DNA from: Cephalotus follicularis
Lineage: Eukaryota; Streptophyta; Magnoliopsida; Oxalidales; Cephalotaceae
Assembly (NCBI GenBank): GCA_001972305.1
Contig: BDDD01002285.1
Span: 1 to 64,000, forward strand
Direction: 5' to 3'
DNA: 64,000 bases
Position numbers and translations under genes: made by a program. The notes under the pieces were generated by a model, which had not been told where the DNA came from, searched no databases, and worked only from the letters and a program-made list of their open reading frames with translations. Positions 2,382 through 60,991 of the stretch are shown here, piece by piece (positions within the stretch are counted from its first letter, which is position 1; each line of letters begins with the position of its first letter).

Positions 2382-5173
2382 TGTAATACCATGCTTACCT
2401 GTGCGTATTTTCTTACGGGTTTTATCTGTTTCGTTTAAGTATTTGTCTGTTTTATGTTGGGTTTATGTTTTTGGGCTGACTGATACCAGCCTTAATTTTG
2501 GGCATGTTGGTATGGATATTTTGTTTGGTATATTTAGTCATATTATTTTTATTACAAAACCATTTTTATCAAATACATAATTATCTTCTTATAATCTTAA
2601 ATTGATTTTATTAATTAAATTTTCAAAAATTCGTTTTTAAAAACAAAATCTTTATCTTTAATATTTTCCTTCTTCTTCCCAAACTCTCTCTCCCGTATCT
2701 CTATCTCTCCAATCACCCTCTCCCTCACAACTCTATCTCTTTCCTTCTTCTCTCCCTAAAAATCTTCCCTTTTTCCTTATCTAACTAGATTAGGTCTCTT
2801 GTTTCCGTATTCTAGCCGAACTCTCTCTCTTTAAGTATGTTAATTCAATTGTGTTTCTGTCGTCTCTCTCTTTGCTTGTGGTTGCTGCCGAACCTGCCAT
2901 TGGAGAGTCATTGTGTTTTTGGTGTTCTTGCTTCATCAATCAGGTTAGTTTCTTCATGGTTTCAATGTAGGAATCATTTTTGCAATGTTTGGTATAGTTG
3001 ACAGGCTTTGAATTCTTGATATCTTCCTCTCGTTTTCCTTTCTGATCAGCCACTGTGTCCTCCGAATTGGTGTTTCTGCAACTGTTTTTGACATCCATCA
3101 GGTTGGTTTCCTATGTTGTTAAGTCATGGTGATTGGTTATATGTTTTTGTCTATCGAATTCTTATGTTATAGGCTGCTAGAATTCCTTTAATTCAGTTTG
3201 GTTCCTGCCTTCTGTCAATAACTTTCTGAGTTGGTTAGCAAGCCATTGTCATCTCATATGTGTTATGTAATCTGGTTTAATAAATTGAATATGGCAATTA
3301 TGCAGAAAAGTGATTAGGAAGAGACATGCATGGTATAAATTTTCTGTCACTCTTAAATAATTTTCTATCAATAGGTCTCTGTCGAATTCTGTGTTGTAAC
3401 ATTGTTTTACATGCCATGCAAGGTTGTCTTTAATGTTGGTAATCTTCTAGTGTCGAAAAATTCGAGTCTTGGCTGCTAAATTGCACAAAATCGCACTGAA
3501 TTGGTGTTCTGTCACTCAGAACAGTTGACTGCCCATATGAACAGTCGACTGCTTTGTGTTGAGTAGTCGGCTGGACCCCTGATTCAGTCGACTGCTTGCA
3601 TGTCCAGGTTGAGTAGTCGACTGGCGCTGTTGCGTAGTCGACTGCCACCCCTTGATTAGTCGACTGGATTCCTGAAACAGTCGACTGGTTTGTCCTGTAA
3701 ACCCCTGTTTTCATCCATTTGTTCTTCCGATGATCCGGATCTATTCTAAACATCATTATGATTCTGTGTTATGTTCAAAATGAATTTTAGACCCTTATTT
3801 GAACATTGTTATGTTGAATAGATTATTGTGCTACGTGAAGCAAATTAAGTTTACCGGATATTCGTAAGTTGGTCTGTGATCGCATAAGGTATGGATTTTC
3901 GTTCCTTCATAAACTCTTACTGATTCAGTTCTGTTTTGAGAATAAATATAGATTCTTTATTTTGGTTTTATCTGAATTGAAGCTGTTTTGTTTTAATGAG
4001 ATGAATGGATATTTCTTTTTGGGCATCTGGTTTATTTGAAATAAATTCAGTTTATGAATATGTCCCTTTCAGATTATGAACTCCGTTATATTTTGATTTT
4101 GAAATAAAGTCAGTTAACATTTTATTGAATATATTTTATGGCTTAATGAACTCCGCTATGTTATGTTTATGAAATGTTATGCAAATGTTTCTTTATTGTG
4201 AAAATAAAAAAGTTGCATTTCGATTATGAAAGTATATGTTATGTGAAACTATATCGTTTGTTAACGATTTATGATTATGTTGGGAATCCTTTCTATGTAT
4301 TTTAAATGGATTTGATGAAATCAAAGTTTTGAAATGGTGAAATACTGAGCTTTTATAACCACCTATGGGGGCACCATAGGCATGCTGTGAGCCTGGCACG
4401 GGGGCATGACACTTTCCGTAACGGTGTGATTAGATTACGGCGTCTCTCTGGGATATCTTTGGATAGGATTTGTGACAGAGGCGTTTGGATCGATCCTAGT
4501 TATATGTTTTTGGGATATGCTTTGGGATATGAGAATTGTATGTGTAGTGCCGTACACTGCAATTCCATTTGGCAACGTGGGTGTCGCGAACCCCTTGCTA
4601 CTATGTGTTTCTGATATGTTATGGGTTTTGGTGCTCAGTTATGGAACCTATGTTTTGGAAAGGTATACTTTATGGTTTCAAAGTTATGAACTTGGTTTAT
4701 ATGTTTTGCCGTGGGCATTTACAAAGTAGGTTCAAATTATTTTATTGCTCAAGATTTCTGTTTTAAGGTACTTTTGAAATCTTCTTGCTTTAAAATACCA
4801 TTTACTGTTTTACATTCTATATTCGTACTGAGGTTTGCTCAACCGCGTTTTTTGTTTCCATGCGGCAGGTTATCAGGAGCAAAGGGGCAATGTGCGATGA
4901 GAGTGACTCCCATATGTCTGAGGATCATCTAGGAGCTGATCCCTCTGTGTTTGTGTGGTCGTAGTGGGACCTGTTTAATAAACAATATGTTATTTCATTT
5001 TTATGACTTTTGGATTATGAATAAGTTTCAGTTTATGATCAGTTTCGGTATGTTATTGGATATGCTTTAAACCATCACGTTTTTAATAAAGATGAACTTT
5101 TCTAGTATGTTAAGTTATGTTAAGATTCTGTATTTTGCACCTGTGGCGACTCCCACAGCTCGGGGGTGTTACA
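2382..5173 (+). repeat. 3' LTR of element A (2.79 kb)
   Basis: It begins TGTAATACC after the polypurine tract and ends CGGGGGTGTTACA, giving matched inverted ends. A pyrimidine-rich stretch (2660-2800) and a phased GTCGAC array (3524-3685) lie inside. Blocks at 4370-4480 and 4859-4880 (CCATGCGGCAGGTTATCAGG) recur in the H LTRs and in the solo LTR at 46354-48801, so these three are one LTR family. The 5' LTR is not in the window. The short ORFs here (for example 3430-3756 on the other strand) are translations of LTR repeats, not genes. Confidence 0.88.
3524..3685. repeat. Phased GTCGAC palindrome array in A LTR
   Basis: Eight sites of the type AGTCGACTG (six perfect GTCGAC, one GTTGAC, one GTCGGC) have cores starting at 3524, 3544, 3566, 3587, 3616, 3637, 3659 and 3680. 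The spacings are 20, 22, 21, 29, 21, 22 and 21 bp. Sequence between the cores is not conserved. The function is unknown. Confidence 0.85.
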
Positions 5174-8185: not shown

Positions 8186-8515
8186 GCGTTGACTCTTTAT
8201 CTCTAAGCGTCGACGGTCACGACCTTATACTGAGTTCTTCAACTTATATCTTGACTAAAGCGCTGACGCTTTCCTACAAAGCGTCCCCACTTTAAGTCTC
8301 CTCCAGGTCAACTGACACACTTGTCATCAAAGCGTCGACGTTTACATTTAGAGCGTCGACCGTTACCCAAAGCGTCGACTCTTTATCCCTAAGCGTCTAC
8401 GGTGTGAGGGCTTTGTCCAATTTACCCTTGCACTAGTTTAAAGCGCAGATAGAAGGGGTCTAAGCGTTGACCGTTACTACCCAAGCGTCGACGCTTGAAG
8501 TGGAACTATCGGCGC
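8186..8515. repeat. GTCGAC array in the solo LTR
   Basis: Cores start at 8188 (GTTGAC), 8209, 8262 (degenerate), 8283 (degenerate), 8334, 8355, 8374, 8395 (GTCTAC), 8445 (degenerate), 8466 (GTTGAC) and 8487. Neighbour spacings are 21, 53, 21, 51, 21, 19, 21, 50, 21 and 21 bp. The flanks are mostly AAAGCG on the left and CG or CTTT on the right. Confidence 0.8.
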
Positions 8516-8639
8516 TTAAGACAGTTTTCCCTCCCATCACTTAGGGTCATACTACGGGTCCCTTGAACTATTTGCCAATTTACACAATAGCAATCATTTT
8601 CCATAATTAATATCTTTATTGGAAATTCGGGTCATCACG

Positions 8640-11171: not shown

Positions 11172-13620
11172 TATAATAACCGCAATTTCAATTTTAAAGT
11201 ATATTGTATATATGATGAATAAATCATACATTGAATTGAAATTTATGCTTAATTGTTCATTGATTAAGTCAATAATTATTATTGGGTTAAGTTAAGGTCT
11301 TAATTGAACGGAATTAAAGGAATGAAGAACTAAATTGAAATAAATTGGAAATTATTTGAAAGAAGATTTGAGGAGATAAAGTCTGACGCATAAATGTCGA
11401 TGCCAAAGATAGACGTCGACCCCTTGAGCTAGACAAGTGCACTGATACGTGTCTGTTTAAAGAGAATAATATAAATGTTTGTGCCATAGAGGAGGACATC
11501 GACGCATTGAACCCAGATAAGTGTTCGGATGCGTGTTAGTGGAAAGAAAGTAGATGGCATGCTTGGCTTTCACTTGGATAGGTGTTTGCTAGTGTGAAAT
11601 AGAGAAGGAATGTGGCACACATTGGAGACTCAAACGCTGGCTGCTAACTACTGAAGAGCTCAGTGTCCTAAAGTCCTGTAACCTGCAAACTGAGAAGAGA
11701 AAACAAAATAGTGAGTTTAGTGGAGTAGAGAGTGAGAGAAGGGAAAATGTTGAGAACTTGAGTTAGCAATTTAGATGAACCATTGAGATAATTCCTCCAT
11801 ATCAGGCATTGTTGAGAGACGAATTGAGGATTATAAACATTTTGTGAAAAAAGAGAAACAATATGAAGTACTGAGTTCATGCAAAAATGGAGTTCAAAGA
11901 GGAACTTGAGGCTTGAAGTGGTTGGTAAGCTTCTGGTCGAGTTCAATGTTTGTATTATAGTTAATCAGTTTATATGTACTGATTTCGTATTCGATGTTAA
12001 CATGGAAATGATTGTTTATATGGGATTGTTTAAGATTGAATTGTTTGAGGAGTATTGGAGTGTAAAGATAAGAATCAATCCAATTTGATTCTGGGATAGC
12101 AATTGAGGTAGGGTTTATGACGTGTTTATGAAGCTATAACTTGTATATTGTGTTATGGTAGTTTATGTGTGGTTGCATGTTAATGTTTGACTGAATTAGA
12201 AGGGTAAATTCATGCTCTGGTTTGAAGTAGTATTCTGTGTATTGGGTTATGCTGAGAATGACGCACAAACCCAGGATAAACGTCGACGCCTAAAAGAGAT
12301 AACGTTGATGCTTAAAGCTAATGTCTTAAAAGACATTAGCGTCTAGGAGGAAAACGTTGACGCTTAAGGTTCCTACCATAACACGTCGACGCGAATGTTG
12401 AATGTCGACGCCAATAAAAGAGAAAACATTGATTGTTAAGTTTCCTACCTTAACGCTTCGACGCAAAAGATACACGTTGACGCTAAAGGTTAACGTCAAC
12501 GCCTAAGATATATACACTGATGCCATACTGAAACAGTAGAGAATTTTCTCCTGTTTATAGTTGATTCACATAATATTACACTAGTTTCCTCATTGTGAAC
12601 TGTTATGTATCATTACTATTTTGATAGTGATTGTACTGTTGTGTAAATTGCATATTCATGGAATGTATTTACTATTAGAGATGTATTATATCTATCAAAG
12701 TAATTTTTATAATTACTACAGTTTCAAGTATTTCAAGAACTAAGTGCTATATGCACGACTGAATATTTTAACAGCTATTGTACTGTTTTCAGAAATGAGA
12801 ACTTACTGTTACTGATTTATTATTACTGTTTTCTGTACCAAATGAGACTACTGATTATATGACATTATATATGTAATAACTGAATTGATTGTGATTGATA
12901 GTCTGTTATCCTAGTGATCAAAGTGTATCACTGGCTATAGAGGTGGGCCTAGGTACTAGGAGTTGGCCAGAGCTTATACACCAAACATATCTGCACTGCA
13001 GATCTTGACTGTTAATTGCTCGCTAAATGCCAGTAATACTGGTTACCTTTTCTATCATCGTCGGAAGGTATGGTGATAGTTAGGTGGTGCATAATTGGGG
13101 CTAGGATGTAGCAAGGTGTGACACCCACCAGTCTTTGGACAACTGTACTATTTGTACCCTTTGTGGTATTCTTGATATCTAATTGATTGTAGCTACTTGG
13201 CATGGTTTCTTATATATTTTGATTTATATATATACCTTATTGAAATATAAACTGTCATGCATGATTACATCTATATATTCATTTTCATGCATACTTCTTA
13301 CTTAGCCGAGTAGACAAAAGGCTAATACCTACAAATTTCAGATTGACAAGCAAGGGATCGGGACAAGTGCTGTCGAAGCTTTACTTTGAAGGTTTTTATT
13401 AAGGTTGTAAACTGTAATAAGTCATACCCTTGTGTTATATTTGTATTTTCAATATGTAATATATAACTTTGAATTGTATAAGTTTAAACATGTAGTATGG
13501 GCTGCATGTGTATACTATTTGGACAATCCAGTATTATTAATGCTTCCGCAAAAGTTAAAAAATCCAATTAATTGGAAAATATTGGATTAACCATGTGTTA
13601 ATAAAAATCAGGGTGTGACA
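11172..13620 (+). repeat. 3' LTR of element B (2.45 kb)
   Basis: It begins (TA)TAATAACCGC at about 11172, after a weak purine tract (gaatgggagaa), and ends CAGGGTGTGACA at 13620, where copia pol begins abruptly. It carries two GTCGAC clusters, near 11385-11520 and 12281-12500. In the second, core starts include 12282, 12304, 12356, 12385, 12404, 12428, 12476 and 12495 with less regular spacing (19-29 bp, with gaps). No coding features. Confidence 0.82.
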
Positions 13621-18607: not shown

Positions 18608-19252
18608 TACTATAAGAGAGAGGGGGGGGGGGGGGGGGAATTGTAGTGTGACTGAACTTTTTCGAATTATCAAATTAAGCTATAAAATAAAAACAAACAA
18701 TAAAAAGACTATTAAAAAAAATTATAAGTAAAGAGAGAGTAAGAAAGTGCAAACACGATTTTATAGTTGTTCGGCCAAACTCTTGCCTGCGTCCACTTTT
18801 CCCAAGGACCTCATTGAGTTTCCACTATTCTCCGAATATCTTTTCAGGTACTATAAGTAAAGAGAGAGTGTATGATGTTTTGTGTAACCTCTCTAAGCTT
18901 GGATTTTGAATAATTTTGCTCACTTACAATAGCTTAGAGTTTGCTCACAAGATAACAATAAAGAAGCTTTGATATGGCTTGTGCTAATTTTTTTTTGTGA
19001 TTTGAAAGTTGTGAATCTTGTTCTTGTAGTTGTTGTTTTTTTTAATCTTGTTTCAGTCTTCTATTTATAGTTTACTTCAGTTTGTAGTCGTTATAGAGGT
19101 TATAGAGCCGTTGGAGTTGCCTTGGGAATTGTTGTCTTAAAAACGGTGTTTGAAAAGATGCTTCATTGAAATCTTCCCGCGCGCAAAGCGTCGACGGAGT
19201 TGTTCTAAGCGTCGACCGATATGCATTTGAATTTGAAATCCCCTGCTTAAAC
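18608..19252 (-). repeat. 5' LTR of copia J, downstream segment
   Basis: It runs from beside the primer site to the insertion point of element C. It contains a 17-G run (18622-18638), matching the C-run in the copia LTR at 423-432, and the same 'gtggacgcaggc...tttggccgaac' block. Two GTCGAC sites (19190 and 19211) lie near the C junction. The LTR resumes at 35935, with TAAAC duplicated (19248-19252, 35935-35939). Confidence 0.85.
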
Positions 19253-19704: not shown

Positions 19705-19712
19705 TATAAATA
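19705..19712 (+). promoter_or_regulatory. TATA-like box 2 in C LTR
   Basis: TATAAATA followed by CCCTTTCC is a near-ideal plant TATA box, conserved in the 3' LTR at 27341-27348. The likely U3/R boundary would be some 30 bp downstream, near the GGATGGTAC block. Confidence 0.65.
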
Positions 19713-33896: not shown

Positions 33897-35934
33897 TTTA
33901 CTTGCCTACCAGCTTGTGTGTGTGCTTGTGTGCCTGCTATGCGTGTTTGTTATTGTTTGTTGCTATATGTGATTTATTGGTTGTGTGTAATCATTTAGTA
34001 AAGTAAAATTATGCATATATGTGTTCTCGGGTATGTACCTTAGCCGAACAATGCGCGTAGCATGTGGTTATTTCCTCTTCCCATGCTATGCGTTCCTATA
34101 CGCACATGATGCTTGCGTTTTATTCCTGGCGCTTTGTCCTGGTATGCACTAACAGTGCAAAAAGCACCTAGTCATCGTCGCAAAGACGCCGTGTTGAAGT
34201 TGAGTTCTCTTGGCCATGCGTCCAGGCCTGGCGACTCGCTGCGCCCTCCCAGGTAGGCGTCGTGCTCCCTCTATTGCCGGCGAGCAAAGATCATTCGTCC
34301 AAGGCATGAAACGCATGACGCCCGAGGTGCCGAGATGCACTATGCATCTGCCTTGGAATAATGCTAGACGTGCCCATGTGCAGAGCTGGAAAGATGGGGT
34401 ACCAGGGGCGACTTGGTGTCGAGCTGCCTTGCCGAAGCCCCTCTACCACGCCTGAGCAGCCTTGGTGCCGAGCTACCATGCCCAAGATACCATGCCCGAG
34501 CTGCCATGCGCTGCCATGCCCGAGCTCCATGCCGAGCTCCGGGACATAAGGTGCCGAGCTCCAGGACATGAGGTGTAGATATCCATGACATGAGGTGCCG
34601 ACCTCCATGCCATGCCAGAGCTGCCACCATACCTGAATCGCGATAGCGCTGAGCTCCATGGCTTGGCAGCCATGGTGGCAGAGGTGGCAGGTGATAAGCG
34701 AACACACCAGGGATGACACTTGGGGAGCTATGGAGTGAAGTGCCATGTAAGGCGCTGAACTTCCTCCTCTGCCATGTGCATTGAAGCTTTGCCTTCACCC
34801 AAGCATGAGACGGCGCCTCTGCCATACGTCCTTGTATGTGCCAAGAAGAAGAGGCAATATAGTGTAAGCACGCATGTGTCCTTGCATGAGCAGGCTTTCA
34901 ACAGTACCTAGCGCATATGTTCCCTGGTATATGCATAGGTGTTTAATTATAATTCTGGCAGGCAGTTATGTGGTGTGTAATGGCTGTGCATGCGCCATGC
35001 AGACGTTGAGCATTGTGCATGGGAAGTGCCATGCACAATGACGTACTCTTGTCAGACTTAAGGAATGGATTATAAATATTAAAGGAAAGGAATAGGATTA
35101 GTAAAGGATGTATAAGGATGATACCAGGCAGGTGAGCCCAATTGGGGAGAATTCCACCGAGCAGGTGAACCCAAGGGGTGAATACCGCGAGGCATGTGAT
35201 CCTTCGGCGAATCCGCCAAATGGTGAACCTAAAGGTGAATTCCGCCAGAGCCGGTGATCCAAAGGGTGAACCGCCAGAGCAGGTGAGCAAAGGGCAAATT
35301 ACGCTCGGCAAGTGAACCTGGTGGAGAATTTCGCAGGCTGGTGAGCTTAAAGGTGAACCTTAAATACTGACCAGACCATAGGATGACCGGACTTGACTCC
35401 CCTGTAAAGTGATTGATGTGTATGATTTGAGTAGAGTAGTCCGAGGATAAAGTATGATAATGTTATGTTATGGATTGTGGTTTGCCTTCATGATGTGCAT
35501 GTATTATTATTATTTCTCCTCTGCTTTTATTGGTTGTTCCTCTGGTATATGCCCGTATATGTGATAACCTACACAACCCCTAGGGTTGCTGACCCATTCT
35601 TTTGAATGGGCCAGGTGGAGGAACAGGTAGTGGTGGCACATCGCAGCAGCATCAAGGATAAAGAGTGAAGTAAGTTCCTCCTCCTCGGCAATACGCTTTA
35701 TGGTTGGATTATCGAAGAATAAATTATGTATTTATTTTTTATAATCTGCTGGTTTATAGCATTGTATTTTATATATTTCGAACTGGGTCTGTATATCCAC
35801 ACATTAAATAAAGAATTATGTTTATGATTTATTTAAGTTTAAAATTTTTCATGGTTAATTATTATAATGATTATGATTGTACTGATTGCCACGTGTCGAG
35901 TCGTGGGGCCCAACCCACGGTTCGGGGCGTGACA
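33897..35934 (+). repeat. 3' LTR of element C, second segment
   Basis: It is colinear with 19868-21962, from 'tgcctaccagcttgtgtgtgtgc' to GGGGCGTGACA, including a shorter minisatellite (34440-34620), the GGTGAA tract (35125-35360) and the hairpins (35574-35614). The TSD copy TAAAC follows. ORFs on either strand here mirror those in the 5' LTR. Confidence 0.92.
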
Positions 35935-36483: not shown

Positions 36484-36640
36484 GTTGACATGAGCCACAT
36501 AGCCTTGCTAATATGAAACTATGCACATGAAATATGAATGGAATTCAGAATTGTATAAATCAAGAGTGTATATATATAAACAATGAGTCATATCTTGGCA
36601 TACAGGGACACCCCTAACCTAACACTAGGAGTTGGCGCTT
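36484..36640. other. Unassigned segment between copia J and element E
   Basis: AT-rich and non-coding. It is not recognisably part of the copia LTR, nor of the E LTR as represented at 42497-45088. It may be the flank that copia entered, or an E LTR variant. Confidence 0.4.
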
Positions 36641-37498
36641 AGAGTCGTTAAGCGTCGATGCATGCGTGCTAGGCGTCAATGCTTAGCGCCTAAGCGTCGA
36701 CTCCTACGCACTAAGCATCGACGGTTAAGGTGAAGCGTCAAAGCTTAGCCATTTGAGAAATATAAAGCATCGACGCCATGCACTACAATATCACTCATAA
36801 ATTGTCGACTGAGTAACACAAAGCATAGACTAATCAGTGCAAAGCATCGACGCTTTGCGCTAGGCGTCGATGTTTTAGTCATGGAATAGTTAGAAAACTA
36901 GATTAAAATCCATTTCAAAACCATTTAAAACCCACTTTAATCTGTTTATTCACCATACAACACCCATATCAATCTATCAACCATATAACAATCAATCAAT
37001 AACAATAACATCATGCCAATCCATCAATTATATGCAAATTAGACATATGTATAACCTACCTGTGAGTAGCAGCAACAGTTCTTCGTGCGCCAATTTCTTC
37101 CACTTTCCTGCCTCTCCATTTCTTTCTTTTTTCTTTCTTTCTTTCCTTCCTTCTTCTTCTCTGCCGTTCTTTCTTTCTGTCTTTCTCCCATTCTCTACCT
37201 CTCTTTCCATGAGGCAAGACGTTAAAAATGAGAGAGACAATTTCTCTGGAAGGAAGACGCCACCTTTGGCGTTTTCTGCCAATTATTAAGGCATTGGGTC
37301 CCTTATACTGCGCATTGTAATATTAATAAATCTAACCGCCCACTAAAAGAACATGATGTTAACATAATTATTGAGCCTTACAATTGTGGGCTGCAATACA
37401 CAATATCTTTTATTGTTTCTGGCCTCCATTGGGCTTTACTACAGCAATATACTACTCCAAATATTACAACAATCATTTATATATTTTGGGGCATTACA
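36641..37498 (-). repeat. 3' LTR of element E, truncated
   Basis: It matches 44235-45088 of the E 5' LTR on the minus strand, from its start (37498, TGTAATGCCCC) through the CT-rich tract and the GTCGAC array. Core starts include 36654, 36675, 36696, 36717 and 36737. About 1.7 kb of the LTR is missing on the left. The LTR ORFs at 37028-37289 come from the CT-rich tract. Confidence 0.87.
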
Positions 37499-42494: not shown

Positions 42495-43439
42495 TATGTC
42501 ATGCCTCGAACTGTGAGGGAAACCCCCATGACCCGACACGTGATCACCTTCCTTTCAATCCTTAAATCTCATTATTCAAAAGTGCTATAAATTTAAAACT
42601 TTAGATCAATCATATCATGTCAGCAAAATAAACGAATCATATAAATACTAACTCTTGTAATTTTACGAAAATCGGGCATGTAGTATTTGTTTATCGGACA
42701 TATGCCCCCGGTAAAAGAAAACACAATCCATATGTTGGGCTCAGCCCTCAGCAGACCACAACATAAATAAGAATTATATCATTCTAATAGCCCGAGTGAT
42801 GAATCCATCCAAATCCAATACATCAACACATATATATATGAAGCACCGCCACAAGTTGACAAGTCAATAGCTGAATTAAAACATGTCTCTTATACATCAA
42901 GGTCTTATGCTAACTCATACAAGCAAACCCATATGCGTAAATAATCCAATTTACTACCCAAATTATGCCTTAGCTATCCCATCCATCTCGGTCTATCTCA
43001 TTGCAATCCATCACAAGTACCTGACCCATTACAATGAATGGGTCAGCGTCCTATGGTTGGGTAGGTTATACTATATGCCATGTAGTGCAACATATATATC
43101 GATATGCCATGCATTCAACATATATATAAATATGTGCCATGCAATGCAACGGATATATAATAACGTGCCATGTGATGCAATATGTATCGTATGTCATATG
43201 TATGCATGACAATTGCAAACAACTTCAATATACCAACCGTCCCTAAGCGGTGGTATACTTGGCTAGTCCTAATCACACCAAAGGCCATAGGCTTGCAGAC
43301 ACTCCATAAAATAATCAATAATCATCCATAGGGTCTGAGTACTATCCCGCCCCTCTAGCTCGAGATAGTACAACCACCGCCTACAGACCCCCCTTTGGGT
43401 TTTAGTCACGTGGTATCGAGATAACATTGATCCCACCGT

Positions 43440-43605
43440 CCATACCATAAGGCTTGTCAATGTTGGTCCTAGCCCATAACATGAGGCTGGTCCACAACGG
43501 TCCCAGCCTGTACCATAAGGCTTGTCCATATCGGTCCTAGCCTGTATCATAAGGCTTGTCCACGACGGTCCCAACCATACCATAATCCCATCGGTCCGCC
43601 CACAA
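43440..43605. repeat. About 34-bp minisatellite in E LTR
   Basis: Units of the form GGCTTGTCCAnnnCGGTCC, then tAGCCTGTAnCATAA, recur four to five times (43451-43600) with substitutions. Confidence 0.8.
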
Positions 43606-44195
43606 TGTGAGGTCCATGATACCCATTTCCCCCATATGATGTGATCTAGCACCCATAACCTTATGATAGAAATAAAGATTATGAATGGGTTATCTCATAG
43701 GTCTCAAACAATAGCAACCATAACCACAACTATACCATACCCGTAACCCCCAACCATAAAACCATTTAAATGAAAGGGACCTCTCATAAAGGATCACATA
43801 GGATCCGCATCCATCAAAACCATTTTTAAAAATCCATTTTCCATTACCATATGCCATTTTCCATAACCACAAATTATTTCTTGGTCCCTATCGGCGTTAT
43901 AACGAAATGGAGAGGAAGTTCGACTAGGAAATCCTCGTCCAGATGTCTCAATCGAGCTAACCTAACCATTCATTGAAAACCATTTCGAAATCCATTTAAA
44001 TGTTGAAAAACCTTTTATTAAACTTCACTTTAAAAATCTATTGGAAAATTGATTTGGAGATTTAAAAGAGTCAAAGAGGATTTCCATAGGTTACAAGGGC
44101 TTAGGGAGGCTTCCTATGGAATCCAATTGAAGATAAAATCCTTATTGGATTAAAACCATGTAAAACAGTACATTTTGGGCTGAGCAGGGTGTTAA

Positions 44196-44460
44196 GCGTC
44201 GACGCATACGTGCTAGGCGTCGACGCTTAGTGCCATTAAGCGTCGATGCATGCGTGCTAGGCGTCAACGCTTAGCTCCTAAGTGTCGACTGCTACGCACT
44301 AGGTGTCGACGGTTAAGCTGAAGCGTCGATGCTTAGCCATTTGAGAAATATAAAGCATCGATGTCATGCACTGCAATATCATTCATAAAGCATCGATTGA
44401 GTAACACAAAGCATCGACTAATCAGTTCAAAGTGTCGACGCCGTGTGCTAGGTGTCGACG
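44196..44460. repeat. Phased GTCGAC array in E 5' LTR
   Basis: Twelve GTCGAC-like cores start at 44198, 44219, 44242, 44263, 44284, 44305, 44325, 44357, 44392, 44413, 44434 and 44454. The spacings are 21, 23, 21, 21, 21, 20, 32, 35, 21, 21 and 20 bp. Five cores are perfect; variants are GTCGAT, GTCAAC and ATCGAC/T. The truncated 3' LTR keeps the same phasing. Confidence 0.88.
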
Positions 44461-45088
44461 GTTTATTAGTAGAACAATTAGAAGACCAGATTAAAATCAA
44501 TTTCAAAACCATTTCAAAACCCATTTTAATCTGTTTATTCATCATACCCAGCACCCATATAAATCTATCTACCATATAACAATCAATCAATAACAATAAC
44601 ATCATGCCAATCCATCAATTATATGCAAATTAGACATATGTATAACCTACCTGTGAATAGTAGCAACATTTCTTCGTGCGCCGATTGCTTCCACTTTCCA
44701 GCCTCTCCTTTTCTTTTTTTTTCTTTATTTCTTTCCTTCCTTCTTCTTCTTGGCATTTCTTTCTTTCTGTCTTTCTCTCATTCTCTGCCTCTCTTTCCAT
44801 GAGGTGAGACTTTAAAAATGAGAGAGACAAACTCTCTGGAAGGAAGACGCCGCCTTTGGCATTTTCTGCCAATTATTAAGGCATTGGGTCCCTTATACTA
44901 CGCATTGTAATATTAATAAATCCAACTGCCCACTCAAAGAACATGATGTTAACATAATTATTGGGCCTTGCAATTATGGGCTGCAACAAACAATATATTT
45001 TACTGTTTTTGGCCTCTATTGGGCTTTATTACAACAATGCACTATGCCAAATATCACAACAATCATTTATACATTTGGGGGCATTACA

Positions 45089-46353: not shown

Positions 46354-48801
46354 TGTAACACCCCCAATACGGTGGGAGCGCTTACAGGACAAATACAAAA
46401 CTAATCAAAGGCATAAACACATAAGCTTATCTTTATAAATCAAAACATCAGCCTTTATTCAAATTACGCGGTAATTTCTAGATCCGATAACAGAATACTG
46501 ATAAACATAATTCTTAACATAAATTCCAAAACCATAAAAACTGTACATAACTCCGGCCTAACATGACCATATGATAACTGAAACATAATAGGATCAAACT
46601 CCTAGGTGATCCTCTGATATAGGTATGGCAATCTCTCATCACACATTTCCCCGACGCTCCTGATAACCTGCCGCATGGAAAACAAAACGCAGCTGAGCAA
46701 ACCTCGGTACGGATATAGAAAATAAACCATTAAATGATCATTTTAATAGAATAGAGAAGGTATTTGAAATTTTAAATCAAAAATCTCATGTATAAGATAA
46801 TTTAACATTATTTCATAAAGTAAGAGAGAATAATCATATAAACAATTGTAACAATTTAAAATAAATATCCAAGTTCAAAGCATTAACCGAATTTCAAAGT
46901 AAAATCCGAATTTCAAATTAATATATGAAAGCAATATCCGAATTTCAAAACAATATTTGAGTTTAATATTTCCATACAGAGAATCCGATGTGTATACATA
47001 TATATAAATATGCAAGGGGTTCACGAGGCCCACATGCCAAACGGAATGATGTGTACGACACTACACAATCAATTCCCAAAATCCAAATCCGATAATACTA
47101 GGGTCGACCCATAAGCCTCTATCCGAAATGTCACAATCCAGTGACCACATCCAAATCTATGTGAGACACCGTAGACTAATCACACCGCTACGGAAAGTGT
47201 CATGTCCTCCGTGCCAAGGAACACGCCTATGGGATCCCCATAGGTAGGTATAATCTAAGTATGTCACTATTCCAAAATAATTTCTAAAACCATTTCAAAA
47301 CATATATAGGCAGTATTTCCGAATAAATCCGAAATCGATGCCAAAACATATTTCCATATCCAAAAATCATACTCATTTAATTTCAATTAAAAGAGATGAT
47401 AACAGTAAAATCAGTATACACAACAATACCAAATTTACAAAATCAGAATTATTCCACTTTAATCATCAAAGTAATAAAACTGATTTTATTCAAATCATAT
47501 CAGAAGCTCATAATCAAAATGGAGATTATTTCAAATAAAAACCGAATGGTAGCAAAAAACGAAGAATCCGTACCTTAGTCGTCCAAATCTAATAAAAAAC
47601 TAGAACAGGACAAAAGAAGACACAGAACCGACTTAACCTTCACCACCGATGTTTCAATACCCTAAACATACAAACTAGATCGAACTACAAAATAAAAGAC
47701 ACAAAAATACAAACTGCCAGAAGAAAGCGTCGACGTTTAGGACAAAAGCGTCGACTTGCACGATAGAAGTGTTGATGCTTAACATAAGGCGTCGACAGTT
47801 TAGGCATAATCGTCGACAATATAAACGAAACAGTCGACGCTTAGACACATGCATGGCGTTTAAAACAGATTTTCTACACACAGTCGTTGACGCTTACTAT
47901 ATAGGTGTCGATGCTTTAGGTCGAAAAACATGAAAACGCGTTGTTAGCAGTTTACAGATATGAACCAAAATCCGATTTTTTCTTAACTATCAATCATAAA
48001 ACAACTGTAAATACATGTTCTAATCATAACTTCTATGTTTGAAAATACCAGTGTAACTATTTAAAAGCATAAACATATATATTTGTAGATTAAACATGGC
48101 AATAACAAAGTTTCAAAATACAATTTTTGGTATTCCATAAATATGACAGTTTCATGAACTAAAAATGGAGTTTTCAACAAACTATAAGCTTATATTCAGT
48201 AAAACAGTAATATATATGACAACAAGGAAATCAGTAGGATGACATACCTTCAAATAATGCAATAAGATGATGAGAAAATATAGAAAATGGCTGTCAGGTT
48301 TGTAAAGAAAAATGTGCAGGTGCAATGTTTTAAAAAGAGAGAAGAAATCATGGGTTTAATGGCCAAAACGTGTAGATTAATGACAGAATCGGTTGGTTTA
48401 AAAGCTTACCATATGAGTAGAAAACGCGGTAAACATAGAAGGAAACAAATATCTGGATTAGGGAAAGAATCTCCCTTTCCAAAAACAAAGCCACCATCCA
48501 AAAACAATACGGAAAGCCGACTTAACCGTCGACGGTCATGCAAAGCATCGACGTTTGACACCTTTTTACACTAAAGCATTGACATCATGCAAAGGCGTCG
48601 ACGTTTTCAATCCTGGACGAAACACGAAAGACCATATCGCTAAGGCATTGACGCTTAGGACAAAGGCGGCGATGCTTAACGTCCAGAATACAAAATGAAA
48701 GAGTTTTTCAAAACAATTTCAAATGGTTCGAACACATAACACATATAACATGAAACATAACATAACATATGACAACCAGCGTAACGAAACGAGATATTAC
48801 A
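46354..48801 (-). mobile_element. Solo LTR (2.45 kb) of the A/H family inserted in F
   Basis: It is flanked by ATCGC (46349-46353, 48802-48806) and interrupts the RNase H frame of F. In plus coordinates it begins TGTAACACCCCCAATACGG and ends GATATTACA. The block TCCTGATAACCTGCCGCATGG (46658-46678) and the 'agtgtcatgtcc..cgtgcca' block (47197) match H and, reversed, A, fixing minus orientation. Two GTCGAC clusters: 47729-47910 and 48528-48600 with degenerate sites to 48680. Small ORFs inside are not genes. Confidence 0.9.
47725..47840. repeat. Phased GTCGAC array in the solo LTR
   Basis: Six consecutive cores start at 47729, 47750, 47771 (GTTGAT), 47791, 47812 and 47833, at spacings of 21, 21, 20, 21 and 21 bp. 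This is the most regular array in the window. Confidence 0.9.
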
Positions 48802-49142: not shown

Positions 49143-51793
49143 TGTCACACCCCGTTTCCACAATAGACCCGGAGGTCATGGTAATTAACATATATTCAGC
49201 TTATACGAAAAACTGGGAAACTTAAAAACTTTTCGAATAATATAATATCTTGCGGAAGCATTAATTATAAGCTGAATTTAAATAACGTAACATGCATCCC
49301 ATAATACATGTTACTCAAAGTTCAACGACAAAATAATATAAACATTGTTAATCGCCCTCAAACAGAACATGAACTATTATTCATTAAATACATTAATCCA
49401 TTTAAACATTTCTCAAAAGAAAATACAACTTTATTCTTCCTTTCAGTCTTCCAAGCATGTGCAATATCAATCCCACTGCATCCATATGAAATTGATAGGG
49501 TTAGCCGAATCCACTGGCAAAGTAGGAAAGATATAAAGGTATTTTGGGGTCAACGATAATAAATGTCATGTGATGAATGCATCGTGATGCAATACGTAAT
49601 ATAACAGTACACATATATATATATATATACACACATCCGTCAATATATAAGCAACATGCCAAGTGGAAACATCCACACAATCCATTAATCATGTCACAAA
49701 GGACCAATCAATCCATTCATACGTACGAAGCGCGTTGCCATCTCCTGGCCTGGACGTCGTACTCCTACCTCAGCCCGGTCTCTGGCCGACTCGAAGCAAG
49801 TCAACAATCTAATGTTACTTGCACTATGGCTAAGTAACCAAAGTGTGGGTGTCCCTAGCCATCTCCTGGCACCTAAAGCACAACCCGCCATTAGCCACCA
49901 GTGACAACCTCCGCCACCACGACTAATACGGCATCAATCCAAATCACAATCCATCAATCAATCCAAAATCAATCCATTTCCAAGTAGTTTATAAGTTATA
50001 AAATACTTGAACAATGTATTTATTCAAAAAGTATAAATAGTCTTTTGAAACAATATTCAGTCTTTGAAACCACATTTCAATCCTTCGAAAATATACATTT
50101 TTGTGTAAAATAATGATTTATTATAAAATCATGTATGCACTTTTCTAAAATGATAAAACAATTTAGAAATCAATAACATCCCAATCCACCATTCAATCCA
50201 TAGTAATTATGCGAGCAAACATATGCTCAAAATGCTAATAGATCCTTTTGGCGTCAACGTGTACTCTCTAGGCGTCAACGCTGATATCAGTCACTTAAGC
50301 GCCTGCGTTCTCCCTTTGGCGTCGACGCTTATATCCCATAAGCGTCAGCGCTTTAACTCTTTGCATCGATGCTTTAAACCAGAAGCTTTATGCGTCAACA
50401 TCTTGTCTCTTTGGCATTGACGCTTGAAGGTAAGAATCCTTAGTCATCGGCGCATAACTCCTAGCATCGACGCTTTAAGGTAGGAAACTTAGTGTCAAGG
50501 CTTGACGCGTCCATTTCCATGCACAACGAACGAAGGCATCGACGTTTCCTCTAAGCATAAACGTTTCTAGCGTTTATATGTCCGCATAACAGTCAAGGCG
50601 TTGACGCTTTTCCCTTAAGTGTCTACGATTCAATGGAACCAGTGTTCATTTCCGTGCATAATAGGTCAAGGCGTCGACACTTTTCCCTTAAGCGTCGATA
50701 GTCAAAGAAAACCAGAGCACCATCTTCTTCAACGCGTCTTAATACCAGTGTAACCAAAACAAAATCATGCATGCAATTCATTTCATTATCGTTTCAATCA
50801 CACATTCATGGTAGGTTAACTTTCCATAGTAACCATAACATCAATTGCACAGTCAACAATCCATAATATCATGTATTTCACCAAATGAACATCTATTACA
50901 TTTGAGCTCAAAATTACAGTTATATAGTCCCTACATCAGATTCCAAGTTAGGAATCGTAGTCCACCTCCTCTAAGTCCACCAATCCGTAGCTTTGAGCTT
51001 CTCGGGTCCGGTACCGCAACTCCAATCCAAGTTCGAGCTTTCAATACTTGGTTCCCAAGCTTCAAGCTTGTGTCCGGTCCAAAAATGGAGAAATATGGTT
51101 CTCTCTCTCTCTCTCTCTCTCTCCCTCTCCCTCTCCTTTCTTTTCCAGGTTTCTCTCATATTTTCTCTCTATTTTTCTTTCTCTTTTCTTTCTTTGCAGG
51201 CACCGTTTGAAAGGGATGAGGGTGTGTTTTATGGTGCATTTCTCTCTCTTTCTTTCTCTTCCGTATGCATGGTGCCAGGTCTCTCTCTCTCTCACTTCCC
51301 ACCTACCGCATGACACACACATGTCTATCCCTATATTCCTTTCTGACATTACAGGCCTGGGGAAACGCCGACCTGTCTAACACGTTACCACTTGGCGTGA
51401 CAAGGTGTCCGAACAGTGGCCTTCACCTGCCGTTCAACACATTTCTGTCAGTGTTTCAAATCCATCTGTTGTCGTGTTTAACCGTCATCAGTTATACCAT
51501 TGGCGTCGACGCTTAATCCTGTGTACTTCATGGCGTCGACGCTATCTCTTGGCATCAACGCTTTGAGGGCATGTATTTTAAGCACGCGTTTTGCTTCCAT
51601 GGCATCGACGCTTTGCTTCATGGCGTCGGCGCTTTAGGCCATTTTCAATATTTTCAATCCATCACAACACTTTTGGCACTCTTTACTCAAAATTCAACAT
51701 CACAAGTTAGAAAACCATAATTCTCATTAATTCATCATTTAATTACAAATGAGAATTACAAAAATACATTGAATGGTAAATCTAGACATTACA
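49143..51793 (-). repeat. 3' LTR of element G (2.65 kb)
   Basis: Plus coordinates begin TGTCACACCCCGTTTCC and end TAGACATTACA, followed by a polypurine tract and pol on the minus strand. Two GTCGAC clusters: 51500-51640 (close to the LTR start) and 50250-50700. In the latter, core starts include 50253, 50274, 50321, 50344, 50365, 50394, 50416, 50446 and 50466. A CT microsatellite (51100-51138) and a (AT)n run (49611-49633) also lie inside. Confidence 0.88.
51100..51138. repeat. (CT)n microsatellite
   Basis: About ten uninterrupted CT units, followed by CTCCCTCTCCCTCTCC. It produces low-complexity ORFs on both strands. Confidence 0.95.
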
Positions 51794-53561: not shown

Positions 53562-54093
53562 TGTAACACCTCTGTTTGAGGACTAGGATGTCACACTAAT
53601 CTAACTTACAGATTCATATAAAAACATCTTAATCTTATTCAATTTATCAGTTCGTGGTGGTTCTAAAATCTGAAAACATATATAAAATCCTTATCATTAA
53701 CTCCAAAAATCAAAATAATGTTCATAACACCGGTCAACATATGATCATAAGCAACTATTCAATTGACAGAATCAACTCCTAAGTGATCCTCTAGCAGAGG
53801 GTAACTCTCTCATCACACTTATCCCAGATGCTCCTGATAACCTGCCGCATGGAAAACAAAAACACGACTGAGCAAACCTCGGTACGGATGTAGAATAATG
53901 AAATAGTTTATGAAACATAACAGTTTACGAAACAAACAGTTTACGAAAAAAACAGGTTACGGAACATAACAGTTCACGGAACAAAATAGTTTACGGAACA
54001 AAACAGTTTACAGAACATAACAATGCAAATCTTTTAACAAACAACACAATTCATAAATAAACCAAATTTATGCAATTCAAATGGTGCTCATGT

Positions 54094-54129
<36 letters not shown>

Positions 54130-56453
54130 TATATATATATATCCACAAATTTTCATAAAGCATATATACGTTTTTGTTCATATCCGATTCCAAACATTTC
54201 CAAACCAGTGCTTTATACTGAGATATGATATACAGTTTAAATACACACATACACACACACATATATATAAGCAAGGGATCCTGCAGAATCCACATGCCCG
54301 ACGGAATGACGTGTACGACACAACATAGTGAATTCCTAAAAAGCTGAATATGATAATAATTTTTCTAGGGCCGATTCATACGCCTCTATTCCGAAATGGG
54401 ATCCAAATCCTGTCCGCAGGATATCAAAAACAGTGAGAGACGCCGTAGACTAATCACACTGGTACAGATAGTGTCATGTCCCCGTGCCAGGCTTACTACA
54501 TGCCTATGGTACCCCCATAGGTGGTTCAGATATATTCTCAATATTTCAAAAATAATGACTTTATCAAAAAATCATTTCAAAATATTGATTTACTCAAAAA
54601 TCAATTCAAAACGTATATACATATACGTACGGTGTTTTTCTGAACATATCCGAAATCATTATCATATCCGTAAAAATATCAACATACTTTCGTAATTGAA
54701 AGTCATGCTCATTTAATTCAACAAATAATTAAAATTTTGACAGTAATAAAATATGAATTTATTTAAATAGATCCGAAGAGATATCCGAGAACAAAAATAA
54801 ATCCGTACTAAAAACATGATAGAATTCATTTCAATAAAATCAAAGGAAAATCCAAGAACGAAGAATATCCGTACCTCATTCATAACAAGTAAAAAGTGAG
54901 TTTATTTTCACAAAATCAGATGAAGATAGCCAAGAACGAAAGTATCCATAATAAAAGTAAAACCGAATTTATTACAATAAAACCTACAGAGAAATCCAAG
55001 AAAGCAGAATCCGTACTTATTTCACCAAAAGCAAAACTGAAATTTTCTAATAAAATCCGAAGATAGCCAAGAATGAGAAAATCTGTACTTTGTTCATAAA
55101 CAGTAAAGCTAAAATATATTCTCAGACAAAATCAATAGGAGAGTGTCAAGGAAACAATTATCCGTACACTTATTCATAAAAGCATAAATAGGATTTATTA
55201 GAATAAAACCAAAGGGAGTTTATCAAAAAGGAAGACGTTCGTACCTTTGCCGCCCAAAACTAATAATCACAAGAATGAACCAAAAACACGTACAGAATCA
55301 CCCTAATCGTCACCACAGATGTTCTATAACCCTAAACATGCAAACCAAATCATATTATCACATAACAGACATAACATATGTTAAATATAAACTGCCAGAA
55401 GAAAACGTGAGAAAGCGTCGACATTCACATCAAAAGCGTCGACGATCAAGGCATGGCATTGACGCTTAAGACAAAGCACAAGACAAAGCGTCGACAAGAA
55501 GCATGACAATTTATGTTGAAAGCGCCGAAGAAAAACATTACAAAACACGACATAAGCGTCGACGCTCAAATAAAAGCGTCGACGGTCAGGACATAAGCGT
55601 CGACAAGAACGAAAAATAGTCGAAGCTGAAGATGAAGAAGATGATAAAAAGAGTTTCAAAAATCCAGTTTTCTCAGTCATAAATCAATAAAACAGTAGTA
55701 TATAAGCATTAAAACATGGTTTCTCAGTTTAAAAAAACTAGTATAACATTTTCGATGCATAGACATATGGATTACAAGATGAAAATAGCAGTGACAACTT
55801 TCAAAACATATCTTCTAACATTTCATCATTTAAAATAGTTTGCATTATCAATACAGTTTTTTTTTGCACAATCTAATGACTTTATATTCAATAGAATAGT
55901 AATGTAAAACAAAGTTATCACATCATATCTTCAAATGGTGGAAAAACAGTGATGAAGATGATGAAAAGAGAAAGACTTCTGCTGATTTGAAAAATGGTGC
56001 AGATGATAAAGTTTTAAAGAGAGAAATCGTGGTTTTGAATGGCAAAAACTTGGTTTAGATTTGTGGCTTTCCTTACATGCAGATACGCAACAAACACTAA
56101 AGGAAAACACAGATAATCGGTTTTATGGCAAAAATCCCCTTTCCAAAATCAAGCCATCGTCCAAAATAAATAAGGAACACTGTTAAAGTGTTTACGGTAT
56201 TGCCAAAGAGTCGGCCCTTAACCCTTTTAATTCAAAAGCATCGATGTCAAATGCATAAGTGTATACGTGATACACCTCTAAAGAAATGTTGAACTAACAA
56301 CGCTTAGGCGTCGACACTTAAGACGAAGGCGTCAACGCTTAACGCCATGAACACAAAACGAATAGAGTTTTCAAAAAAAATTCAAACGGTCCAACGTTAT
56401 AAAACGTATAGCATACGAAGTTAAACATATAGGTAACGGAACGGGATATTACA
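53562..56453 (-). repeat. 3' LTR of element H (2.89 kb)
   Basis: Plus coordinates begin TGTAACACCTCTGTTTGAGG and end GGGATATTACA. Repeated 'aacagtttacg.aaca' units occur at 53915-54020. A CA/TA microsatellite lies at 54097-54141. GTCGAC clusters: 55417-55624 (core starts 55417, 55438, 55458, 55490, 55524, 55558, 55578, 55599, 55619) and 56190-56345. Confidence 0.92.
54097..54141. repeat. (CA)n-(AT)n compound microsatellite
   Basis: About fifteen CA units, then GATATATATATATAT. The other LTR has the same locus at 58491-58541 with fewer CA and more TA units, so it changed after insertion. Confidence 0.95.
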
Positions 56454-56472
56454 TCCTCACCCCCTTAAAAAG
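56454..56472 (-). other. Polypurine tract of element H
   Basis: The minus strand reads CTTTTTAAGGGGGTGAGGA immediately before TGTAATATCCC, preceded by TTTTGGGACGAAATC, the same arrangement as in element A. Confidence 0.88.
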
Positions 56473-56609
56473 ATTTCGTCCCAAAATCTAAAGCACTGCC
56501 ATCCTCTAACTCCCAAACCTCACATTGAAATCGGCATCCAAAAGAAAATCCAGCTCACAAAATTTATCATTGATCATAAAAGCACAATCACAAAATTACT
56601 CTGACACAA

Positions 56610-57802: not shown

Positions 57803-57952
57803 CTACGAACAAGAACCGGAATATGATAAAACAAAAAGAAACATCAAACTGAAACAAAGACATACCGAAACGAATAATAGGAAATAGCCATAACCCAATT
57901 TCTACCCATCTCACAGGCAAACCTAGATAGGCTTTCTAAGGAACGAAAACCT

Positions 57953-57966
57953 ATTCTCTGATACCA
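57953..57966 (-). other. Primer-binding site of element H
   Basis: The minus strand reads TGGTATCAGAGAAT, matching the initiator-Met site, 4 bp inside the 5' LTR. Confidence 0.9.
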
Positions 57967-57970
57967 TAAA

Positions 57971-58511
57971 TATAACACCCCCGTTTGAGGACCGGGATGT
58001 CACACTAAACTAACTTACAGATTCAAATAAAAATATCTTAATCTTATTCAATTTATCAGTACGTGGTGGTTCTAGAATATGAAAACATATATAAAAACCT
58101 TAACATAAACTCAAAAAATCAAAATATTGTTCATAACACCAGTCAACATATGATCATAAAGCAACTATTCAATTGACAGAATCAACTCCTAAGTGATCCT
58201 CTGACATAAGGTAACTCTCTGATCACACTTGCCCCAGATGCTCCTAATAACCTACCGCATGGAAAACAAAAACGCGGCTGAGCAAACCTTAGTAGGATAT
58301 AGAATAACAAAACAGTTTACGAACAAAACAGTTTATGAAACATAACAGTTTACGAAACAAACAGTTTATGGAACATAATAGTTTGTGAAACAAAACAGTT
58401 TACGGAACATAACAATGCGAATCTTTTACAAAAACTGAACAATTCATAAATAAACCGAATTTATGCAATTCAAATGGTGCTCATGTCAAGCACACACACA
58501 CATACACACAG

Positions 58512-58543
<32 letters not shown>

Positions 58544-60991
58544 TATACGTTTTTGTTCATATCCGATTCCAAACTTTTCCAAACCAGTGTTTTATACTGA
58601 GATATGCAATATAGTTTATATATATATGCAAGGGATCCTGCAGAATCCAAATGCCCAGAATTATGTGTACGGCACTACAAGTCAATTCCGAAAAATCTGA
58701 ATCTGATAATAATTTTCGTAGGGCCGACCCATACGCCTCTATTCCTAAATGGGATCCAAATCCCGTTCGCAGGATATCAAAAGCAGTGACAGACGCCTTA
58801 GACTAATCACACCGCTACGGATAATGTCATGTCCCCGTCCCAGGCCCACGACATGCCTATGGTACGCCCATAGGTGGTTCAGATATATTCTCAGTATTTC
58901 AAAAATAATGACTTTATCAAAAATTATTTCAAAATATTGATTTACTCCGAAATCATGTCAAAATGTATATACATATATATATACGGTGTGTTTTTGAACA
59001 TATCCAAAATCATTATCATATCCCTAAAAATATCTACATAGTTTCATAATTGAATGTCATGCTTATTGAATTCCGCAAATAATTAAAAAGTTGACAGTAA
59101 TAAAATCTGAATTTATTTAAATAGATCCGAAGAGATATCCGAGAACAAATTTTTTTTTGACTAAAAAAAGAATAGAATTCATTTAAATAAAATCGAAGGA
59201 GAATCCAAGAACGAAAAATATCCTTACCTCATTCATAACAAGTAAAAACTGATTTTATTTCCATAAAATCAGATGAAGATAGTCAAGAACGAAAGTATCC
59301 GTACTAAAAGTAAAACCGAATTTATTTCAATAAAACCAATAGAGAAATCCAAGAAAGCAGAATTCGCACTTACTTCACCAAAAGCAAAACTGAAATTTTC
59401 TAATAAAATCTGAAGATAGCCAAGAATGAGAAAATCTGTACTTTATTCATAAACAGTAAAACTGAAATTTATTCTCAAACAAAATCAATATGAGAGTGTC
59501 AAGGAAAGAATTATCCGTACACTTATTCATAATAGAATAAATAGGATTTATTACAATAAAACCAAAGGGAGTTTATCAAAAAGGAAGACATTCATACCTT
59601 AGCCGCCTAACACTAATAATCACAAGAATGAACCAAAAACACGTACATAATCACCCTAATCGTCACCACAAATGTTCTATAATGCTAAACATGCAAACCA
59701 AATCATATTATCATATAACAGACATAACAAACATTAAATATAAACTGGTAGAAGAAAACGTGAGAAAGCGTCGACTTTCACATCAAAAGCATTAACGGTT
59801 AAGGCATGGTGTTGACGCTTAAGACATAGCGCAAGACAATGCATCGACAAGAAGCATGACAATTTACGTTGAAAGCGTCGAAGAAAAACATTACAAAACA
59901 CGAGCTAAGCATCGACACTCAAATAAAAGCATCGACGGTTAGGACATAAGCGTCGACCAGAACGAAAACAGTCGACACTTAAGAGGAACAAGACGATAAA
60001 AATAGTTTCAAAAATCCAGTTTTTCCAGTCATAGATAAATAAAACAGCAATATATAAGCATTAAAACATGATTTCTCGGTTTAAAAACACCAGTACAACA
60101 TTTTCAATGCATATACATATGAATTACAAGATGAAAATAGCAGTTTGAACTTTCAAAACATATTTTCTAACATTTCATGATTTAAAACAATTTGCATTAT
60201 CAATAGAGTTTTTTTTTTTGCAAAATCTAATAACTTTATATTCAATAGAACAGTAATGTAAAACGAAGTTATCACATCATACCTTCAAATGGTGGAAAAA
60301 CAGTGATGAAGACGATAAAAATTAATTCTGTTATGAAAGGAGTCGATGCTTTAGGAAAGGAGTCGACTTCTTTTTCTGCAGATGGCATTTAGACTTTGAT
60401 ATTCAACTTGTAATTCCTTGCACATAAATCAACTTGGTTAGATGCAAATATGTTATCATCAAAACAAGGATTGAGACTTAAACGTCAACAAAGATGTTGA
60501 AAAGAGTGAGACTTCTGCTGGTTTGAAAATTTATGCAGATGAAAAAGTTTTAAAGAGAGAAATCGTGGTTTTGAATGGCAAAAACGTGTTTTAGATTTAT
60601 GGCTTTCCTTACATACAGATACGCAACAAACACTACAGGAAAACACAGATAATCGGTTTTATGGCAAAAATCCCCTTTCCAAAATCAAGCCACCGTCCAA
60701 AATAAATAAGGAAAACTGTTAAAGTGTCGACGCTTAACCCTTTAATGCAAAAGCGTCGATGTCAAATGCATAACCGTCGACGTGATACACCTCTAAAGAA
60801 ACGATGAACTAACAACGCTAAGGCGTCGACGCTTAAGACAAAGGCGTCGACACTTAAGACGAAGGCATCAAAGCTTAACGCCCTGAACACAAAACGGACA
60901 GAGTTTTCAAAAATAAATTTCAAACGGTCCAACGTTATAAAACGTATAGCATACGATGTTAAACATATAGGCAACAGAATGGGATATTACA
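57971..60991 (-). repeat. 5' LTR of element H (3.02 kb)
   Basis: Colinear with 53562-56453 over its whole length. Differences: the terminal TGT has become TAT at 57971, microsatellite changes near 58491, small indels, and a 177-bp insertion (60314-60490) absent from the other LTR. GTCGAC clusters lie at 59760-59990 and 60726-60870 (core starts 60726, 60755, 60776, 60825, 60846, 60867). Confidence 0.92.
60314..60490 (-). mobile_element. Copia LTR fragment inserted in H 5' LTR
   Basis: Absent from the partner LTR. On the minus strand it starts TGTTGACGTTTAAGTCTCAA, then TTTTGATGATAACATATTTG, the same start as the copia J LTR (36483). AAGAC (60309-60313) and AAGAT (60491-60495) flank it and may be a mutated target duplication. 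Only about 177 bp is present, so it is a much-shortened LTR or a short element. It contains two GTCGAY sites. Confidence 0.7.

Follow-up and report, generated by a model that had tools for sequence, protein, structure and literature searches.

Palindromic GTCGAC sites at a preferred 21-bp pitch in LTRs of Cephalotus follicularis retrotransposons

Why should a short palindrome recur twelve times at a nearly regular distance within a single LTR? The question is raised by positions 44196 to 44460 of the window, the 64-kb stretch of Cephalotus follicularis DNA analysed here, taken from the start of contig 2285. The window is packed with LTR retrotransposons. For one of its pol pieces, the named proteins among the best 120 of 7977 matches come mostly from a range of plants, at identities of 67% or less. 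The initial annotation of this DNA had placed the sites in an LTR, and the element could indeed be delimited on the minus strand. The array sits in the upper half of the LTR of this Ty3/gypsy element. The element and the array are made up as follows.

42497..45088, minus strand: 5' LTR of the Ty3/gypsy element with the array; starts TGTAATGCCCCC at 45088 and ends ...GACA at about 42497
36625..37498, minus strand: aligned part of the 3' LTR of the array element's family; starts at 37498 after a purine tract, with exact sites at 36696 and 36804
44198..44459, no strand: twelve phased palindromic sites, at about positions 630-890 of an LTR about 2,590 long
44198..44324, no strand: two-site module of 42-44 bp in two diverged copies (sites 1-2 and 3-4) plus a weaker third (sites 5-6), from spacer identities and a TRF row at 44189-44311

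A PBS-like word at 42493 lies directly past the end of the 5' LTR, and pieces of gag, reverse transcriptase and integrase follow downstream on the minus strand. The two LTRs share 89% identity across 876 aligned bp; a further GTCGAC site at 36136 falls outside the aligned part of the 3' LTR. TATA-like words are found in the array-bearing LTR at positions 18, 1930-1991 and 2251.

The twelve cores start at 44198, 44219, 44242, 44263, 44284, 44305, 44325, 44357, 44392, 44413, 44434 and 44454, which reproduces exactly the previously described spacings of 21, 23, 21, 21, 21, 20, 32, 35, 21, 21 and 20 bp. GTCGAC is intact in six cores and differs at one position in four; the remaining pair, at 44357 and 44392, read ATCGAT, with two mismatches each. 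All eight core substitutions are transitions and seven of the eight are at a CpG, as judged with the present flanks, a pattern expected of 5-methylcytosine decay. The CpG observed/expected ratio is 1.41 and 1.18 in the two 200-bp bins of the array, to which the cores themselves contribute CpGs, while G+C is only 0.43-0.47. Elsewhere in this LTR the ratio is 1.29 in the adjacent site-free bin and 0.18-0.89 in the other nine. The spacers are partly related to each other. Identity is 0.93 between spacers 1 and 3 and 0.53 between spacers 2 and 4, which points to two diverged copies of the two-site module; the third copy is weak (0.53-0.60 and 0.33). TRF describes the array as a 21-bp period with 5.8 copies and a 68% match.

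Chance does not account for the sites. The window contains 58 exact GTCGAC against 5.57 expected, and the maximum among 100 shuffles was 13. In a 244-kb set, composed of the window and 180 kb of other stretches (L010-L028), 29 exact pairs are 21 bp apart, 5 are separated by 20 bp, 3 by 22 bp and 3 by 19 bp, and no exact pair closer than 19 bp was found. Runs of N aside, the 37 self-pairs at 20-22 bp are exceeded only by those of AAAAAA (48). The initial annotation had proposed a test for an excess at 20-22 and at 30-33 bp; the former is borne out, but in the same 244 kb there is no exact pair at 31-33 bp. Across the genome (1.577 Gb in 9746 contigs) a spacing of 21 bp separates 105,145 pairs of GTCGAC but 1,224 of its reversed word CAGCTG; at 16 bp the two words give 68 and 72 pairs. 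The 21-bp peak that the initial annotation had proposed to look for is therefore present genome-wide. A second preferred spacing is found at 28 bp, with 12,877 pairs against 65. From the density of sites in 20 hand-picked stretches (101 sites in 190,292 bases) we estimate that independent placement would give roughly 440 pairs per spacing; the count at 21 bp is far above this figure and that at 16 bp below it. The control word CAGCTG is itself commoner at 21 bp (1,224) than at 16 bp (72) or 28 bp (65).

The sites are concentrated in LTRs. Within the window, 53 of the 58 exact sites fall in ten LTR intervals, which were drawn by us, with the far ends of five assumed and one start (11172) taken from a pol alignment; 48 of these 53 lie at LTR positions 139-302 or 630-1299. 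The assignment to gypsy covers five of the ten LTRs, namely those adjoining gypsy pol, with 23 sites. The other five, with 30 sites, are two solo LTRs, one partial LTR and the LTRs of a nested element. Outside the ten intervals are the sites at 19190 and 19211, in a truncated copia LTR, and those at 22120, 42249 and 42286. The further carriers in the window are listed here, with two flank types, A and B, that are defined below.

3524..3685, plus strand: dialect-B array of six exact sites, downstream of an LTR start at 2382 after gypsy pol
8188..8492, minus strand: dialect-A array; the LTR around it (about 5878-8640) is probably a solo LTR and interrupts gypsy pol
12282..12462, plus strand: dialect-A sites in an LTR after gypsy pol, LTR start near 11172 from the pol alignment
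19190..19216, minus strand: truncated Ty1/copia LTR that aligns with the copia LTR of stretch L012 and has two sites at a distance of 21 bp; copia-type gag at 17349-18140
46354..48801, minus strand: solo LTR flanked at either end by ATCGC, with sites at positions 200-269, 964-1068 and 1694 of the LTR
50321..51540, minus strand: four sites; the 3' LTR begins upstream of them at 51793, after an integrase frame
53562..56453, minus strand: 3' LTR of the nested short element, seven exact sites (55417-55604 and 56310)
57972..60991, minus strand: 5' LTR of the same nested element, eight exact sites

The nested element (53562-60991) has LTRs of about 3 kb, pieces of which are 85-88% identical, with 1.5 kb between them and GAGAC flanks, and it sits in gypsy pol. 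Its open frames look gag-like by eye, and Pfam gave no match. Its LTRs also carry 17-bp tandem repeats (53901-54022 and 58306-58414). The solo LTR at 46354-48801 is about 70% identical in parts to the LTR of this element and has a similar two-cluster layout of sites. Arrays are not universal, since no exact GTCGAC occurs in one LTR family, which occupies 19253-21962 and the stretch from 26889. This family has 14- and 22-bp tandem repeats at 20411-20611 and 34474-34614 (of the CCATGCCTGAGCTG type), possibly a different kind of array. At 63579-63812 the window has a 118-bp unit in two tandem copies with 94% matches.

Ty1/copia elements carry the sites as well. The element in L012 has direct repeats at 3552-4686 and 6931-8090 (90.5% identity), a PBS at 4691 and a copia-type gag (PF14223, E 3.7e-21). 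Its LTRs have two and three GTCGAC sites and its internal region has none. In a copia carrier, AGGGGGAG starts 10 bp upstream of the 3' LTR. The copia LTR of L012 shares only short stretches with seven LTRs of the window, many of which are the sites themselves. These copia/gypsy matches of 30-45 bp, with E values down to 8e-7, leave room for the transfer of arrays by template switching. When 37 clusters were grouped by their flanking sequence, eight groups resulted, the largest (19 clusters) joined by partial LTR homology; the arrays are thus not all independent.

The sites themselves extend beyond the six-base core. Among 80 clustered sites, dyad-symmetric information is found over about five flanking bases per side. 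The left flank is GC in 36, CA or TA in 22, and neither in 22. There are two main dialects of the flanks, AAGC-GTCGAC-GCTT(A), or A, and CA-GTCGAC-TG, or B. A second set was drawn from 100 pairs at the first places listed, which lie in contig 1; its 50 distinct spacers comprise 28 of dialect B, 11 of dialect A and 11 others. At most of the places listed, the 28-bp pairs also have dialect-B flanks. Spacer positions 6-10 carry only 0.01-0.10 bits in the second set, and the identity of spacer centres between arrays is that of chance (0.257 in 397 comparisons, 0.262 in 1531). The bases between the cores had been described as unconserved. This holds between arrays, but not inside the array at 44198, where the module is duplicated. 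Exact 21-bp pairs within arrays have a centre identity of 0.444 (n=9). In a wider set the identity is 0.311 between direct neighbours (lag 1, n=38) and 0.463 at lag 2 (n=19), which suggests that some arrays, that at 44198 included, grew by doubling of a module that contains two sites and is about 42 bp long. The whole unit with its spacer is generally not kept between neighbours, as it would be in a simple repeat; the exceptions are part of the 44198 array and position 9201 of stretch L011, with three identical 21-bp spacers. A simple tandem repeat is therefore not the whole story, because spacer centres between arrays are near chance and the core is kept better. The earlier view that this is not an ordinary tandem repeat stands for the core, with the amendment that duplication of the two-site module contributed to growth.

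Variants of the core keep the spacing. In 256.5 kb, 57 one-mismatch cores have an exact site 20-22 bp away, against 7 for nine off-phase distances taken together. The 57 comprise ATCGAC/GTCGAT (17), GCCGAC/GTCGGC (17), GTCAAC/GTTGAC (12) and six other classes with 11 together. The first and third classes are consistent with CpG decay, and GCCGAC/GTCGGC is not. Conservation was counted in 646 alignments with a minimum length of 150 bp and an identity no higher than 95%, 66 of which have a site on the query side; each pair was counted in both directions, so that the counts are not independent. Among 24 palindromic hexamers in the 646 alignments GTCGAC is the best kept (74/139), followed by CCCGGG (16/38). 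In the 66 alignments 101 of its 139 central CpGs are preserved, compared with 673 of 1184 other CpGs. Identical positions in these 66 amount to 725 of 834 for the cores, 1090 of 1326 for the five-base flanks, 3313 of 4373 for the bases between sites and 36605 of 44024 for sequence outside the arrays. The cores are thus modestly above the sequence outside the arrays, and the flanks are not. LTR pairs of one element or family have lost sites separately, mostly with GTCGAC intact in a single copy, as expected if nothing maintains the sites after insertion.

The initial annotation also held that every site lies on one face of the helix. Twenty-one bp corresponds to two helical turns and 28 bp to 2.7 turns. 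The 28-bp spacing, which is common, does not fit a single face, and no 10.5-bp phase was found in neighbour gaps larger than 23 bp (n=38, R 0.106, p about 0.65). These larger gaps lean towards 21k+7 (28, 49, 70), with a period-21 R of 0.50 when gaps of 41-43 bp are left out (n=32) and 0.37 when they are included (n=38). A single face for all sites is therefore rejected; sites share a face inside the 21-bp runs and not across whole arrays. What remains of the earlier interpretation is its protein. A cooperative, dyad-symmetric DNA-binding factor still reads best with the 21-bp peak and the random spacers between arrays, with the single face removed.

We consider it probable that the arrays are cis-regulatory sites in the U3 part of the LTR for such a factor, that neighbouring sites interact at 21 bp, and that selection keeps them. 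A homodimer would bind each palindrome and cover about 16-20 bp, and neighbouring proteins two turns apart would contact each other or bind cooperatively. The bound array may act as an enhancer or chromatin opener at the LTR, so that elements with an array are transcribed, and selection on transposition would preserve the cores and their spacing. Duplication of the two-site module would be part of the source of new sites, and methylation of a copy after its insertion would lead to their decay. The factor would be supplied in trans, more likely by the host than by the element, since the sites are common to Ty3/gypsy and Ty1/copia and also occur in the nested short element, where no pol could be recognised. 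We favour an activating role, because there would be nothing for an element to gain by preserving sites through which it is silenced. The dyad-symmetric factor is a candidate drawn from the sequence patterns, and CBF/DREB is a weak candidate for its identity. ARF, MYB and W-box factors would be other candidate binders. The VOZ site is GCGT-N7-ACGC, and its half-site distance is wrong for the GTCGAC palindrome.

A CBF/DREB (AP2/ERF) stress regulator would make the arrays cold or drought response elements, which we regard as unlikely. AP2 domains bind as monomers. A monomeric binder needs no palindrome, and the symmetric flanks of two dialects are left over. GTCGAC fits the RYCGAC core, as do the phased variants ATCGAC (17) and GCCGAC (17), and GTCGAC with GCCGAC at 21 bp is frequent genome-wide (19,641 + 19,742 vs 1,964 + 2,072). 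GTCAAC/GTTGAC (12), however, is outside RYCGAC, ATCGAC in dialect A can also be produced by CpG decay, and GCCGAC belongs mainly to dialect B (15 of 17 by flanks). PLACE lists GTCGAC as CRTDREHVCBF2 and RYCGAC as CBFHV (PMC9138379). The LTR of tomato Rider has a CBF site, and the element is described in that report as induced by drought but not by cold (PMC6762207). The sites could also be the targets of an anti-silencing protein encoded by the elements and similar to VANC. The account of VANC targets in PMC5735166 describes motif arrays in non-coding parts that vary among related elements and grow in tandem, and two dialects and a two-site duplication were found here. This analogy is improbable in our judgement: a domain search of nine proteins (eight from the window and one other) gave no VANC-like domain, and the sites are common to two superfamilies and to the short element lacking recognisable pol.

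Could the core instead be functionless, and the arrays neutral 21-bp or 42-bp tandem repeats made by slippage and then decayed? The diverged two-site copies at 44198, the three identical spacers at L011 9201 and the within-array identities (0.444, and 0.463 at lag 2) would follow from this. We give it little credence, since a CpG-bearing core should decay first and yet outlasts the spacers, direct-neighbour centres are near chance (lag 1), and the same core and spacing recur in copia and gypsy LTRs. That recurrence might be shared rather than selected in each family if one ancestral array spread by template switching or recombination, as the 30-45 bp copia/gypsy matches and the partial LTR homology (37 clusters in eight groups, the largest with 19) would allow. 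Many of those matches are the sites themselves, and the spacing is kept though spacer centres between arrays are at chance; such a spread is doubtful as the explanation. Sirevirus LTR palindromes have been discussed in connection with siRNAs, and in an RNA-based role, base pairing between palindromes of the transcript would either promote or counter the production of 21/24-nt siRNAs. Four of six array stretches fold better than nearly all shuffles (z -6.65, -5.12, -4.83 and -2.32), but the other two do not (z +0.16 and -1.52), and pairing of palindromes alone would not set a 21-bp spacing. RNA structure is rejected as a common feature because folding differs among the six stretches, and we think a role of this type very unlikely.

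Returning to a trans-acting, dyad-symmetric protein, a bolder form of the reading is possible, at somewhat less than even chances. One dyad-symmetric protein specific to this plant lineage, with two site dialects, may act as a shared switch of transcription or chromatin for a large share of the Ty3/gypsy and Ty1/copia elements, whose arrays would have evolved independently or been acquired. As part of this reading, and held just as tentatively, the sites would constitute a genome-wide LTR operator at a fixed 21-bp pitch, with on the order of 100,000 phased site pairs. If this is true, a single trans factor would be a master regulator for the mobile fraction of this 1.58-Gb genome. The arrays would then also be a natural experiment in convergent enhancer design, built from a short palindrome that is repeated at a strict 21-bp pitch with spacers free to vary. 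A defined GTCGAC bait would make testable what switches plant LTR retrotransposons on. Arrays of palindromic motifs in LTRs are already known; those described here differ in their 21-bp pitch, in a GTCGAC core without CGG-CCG and in their presence in both gypsy and copia carriers. In open-licence papers, no description of 21-bp phased GTCGAC arrays in LTRs was found among the matches listed.

VANDALs are DNA transposons. Their arrays of short motifs are bound by VANC proteins, which remove methylation (Hosaka et al. 2017, PMC5735166). As in those targets, the motifs described here are short, dense and non-coding, differ between related elements and have grown by tandem duplication. The VANC motif YAGTATTAY, unlike GTCGAC, is non-palindromic and its element-encoded binder is known, and the word 'spacing' is absent from the text of that paper (PMC5735166). 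The CBF site of Rider resembles the present sites in that sites of host stress regulators lie in U3, and GTCGAC and RYCGAC are themselves listed CBF elements; in the portion of PMC6762207 that deals with them, the stress sites of Rider are separate elements and not a phased palindromic array.

The closest known kind are the repeated motifs in the LTRs of Sireviruses, a Ty1/copia group, which the motif section of Bousios et al. 2010 (PMC2829016) reports as Sirevirus-specific with a CGG-CCG core. Those motifs are palindromic and number eight or more per element; they cluster in the upper LTR half, upstream of TATA-like boxes, and are associated with CpG islands. The GTCGAC sites likewise are palindromic with dyad symmetry and lie mostly in the upper LTR half. 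The twelve sites of the array LTR and the seven and eight exact sites of the nested element compare with the Sirevirus copy number, whereas the L012 copia LTRs, with only two and three sites, fall below it. The repeated motif listed for Vitis, CGGTCGACCG, contains GTCGAC (PMC2829016), and the position of AGGGGGAG 10 bp before the 3' LTR of a copia carrier is as described there for Sireviruses. The core differs, being GTCGAC with mostly GC/GC or CA/TG flanks and without CGG-CCG, although one of the 13 motifs listed in that section, that of Tnd-1, also lacks CGG-CCG. The carriers differ too, since 23 of the window sites are in LTRs adjoining gypsy pol. Finally, the sites described here have a fixed 21-bp pitch, whereas the section of PMC2829016 on the repeated motifs gives no spacing between copies.
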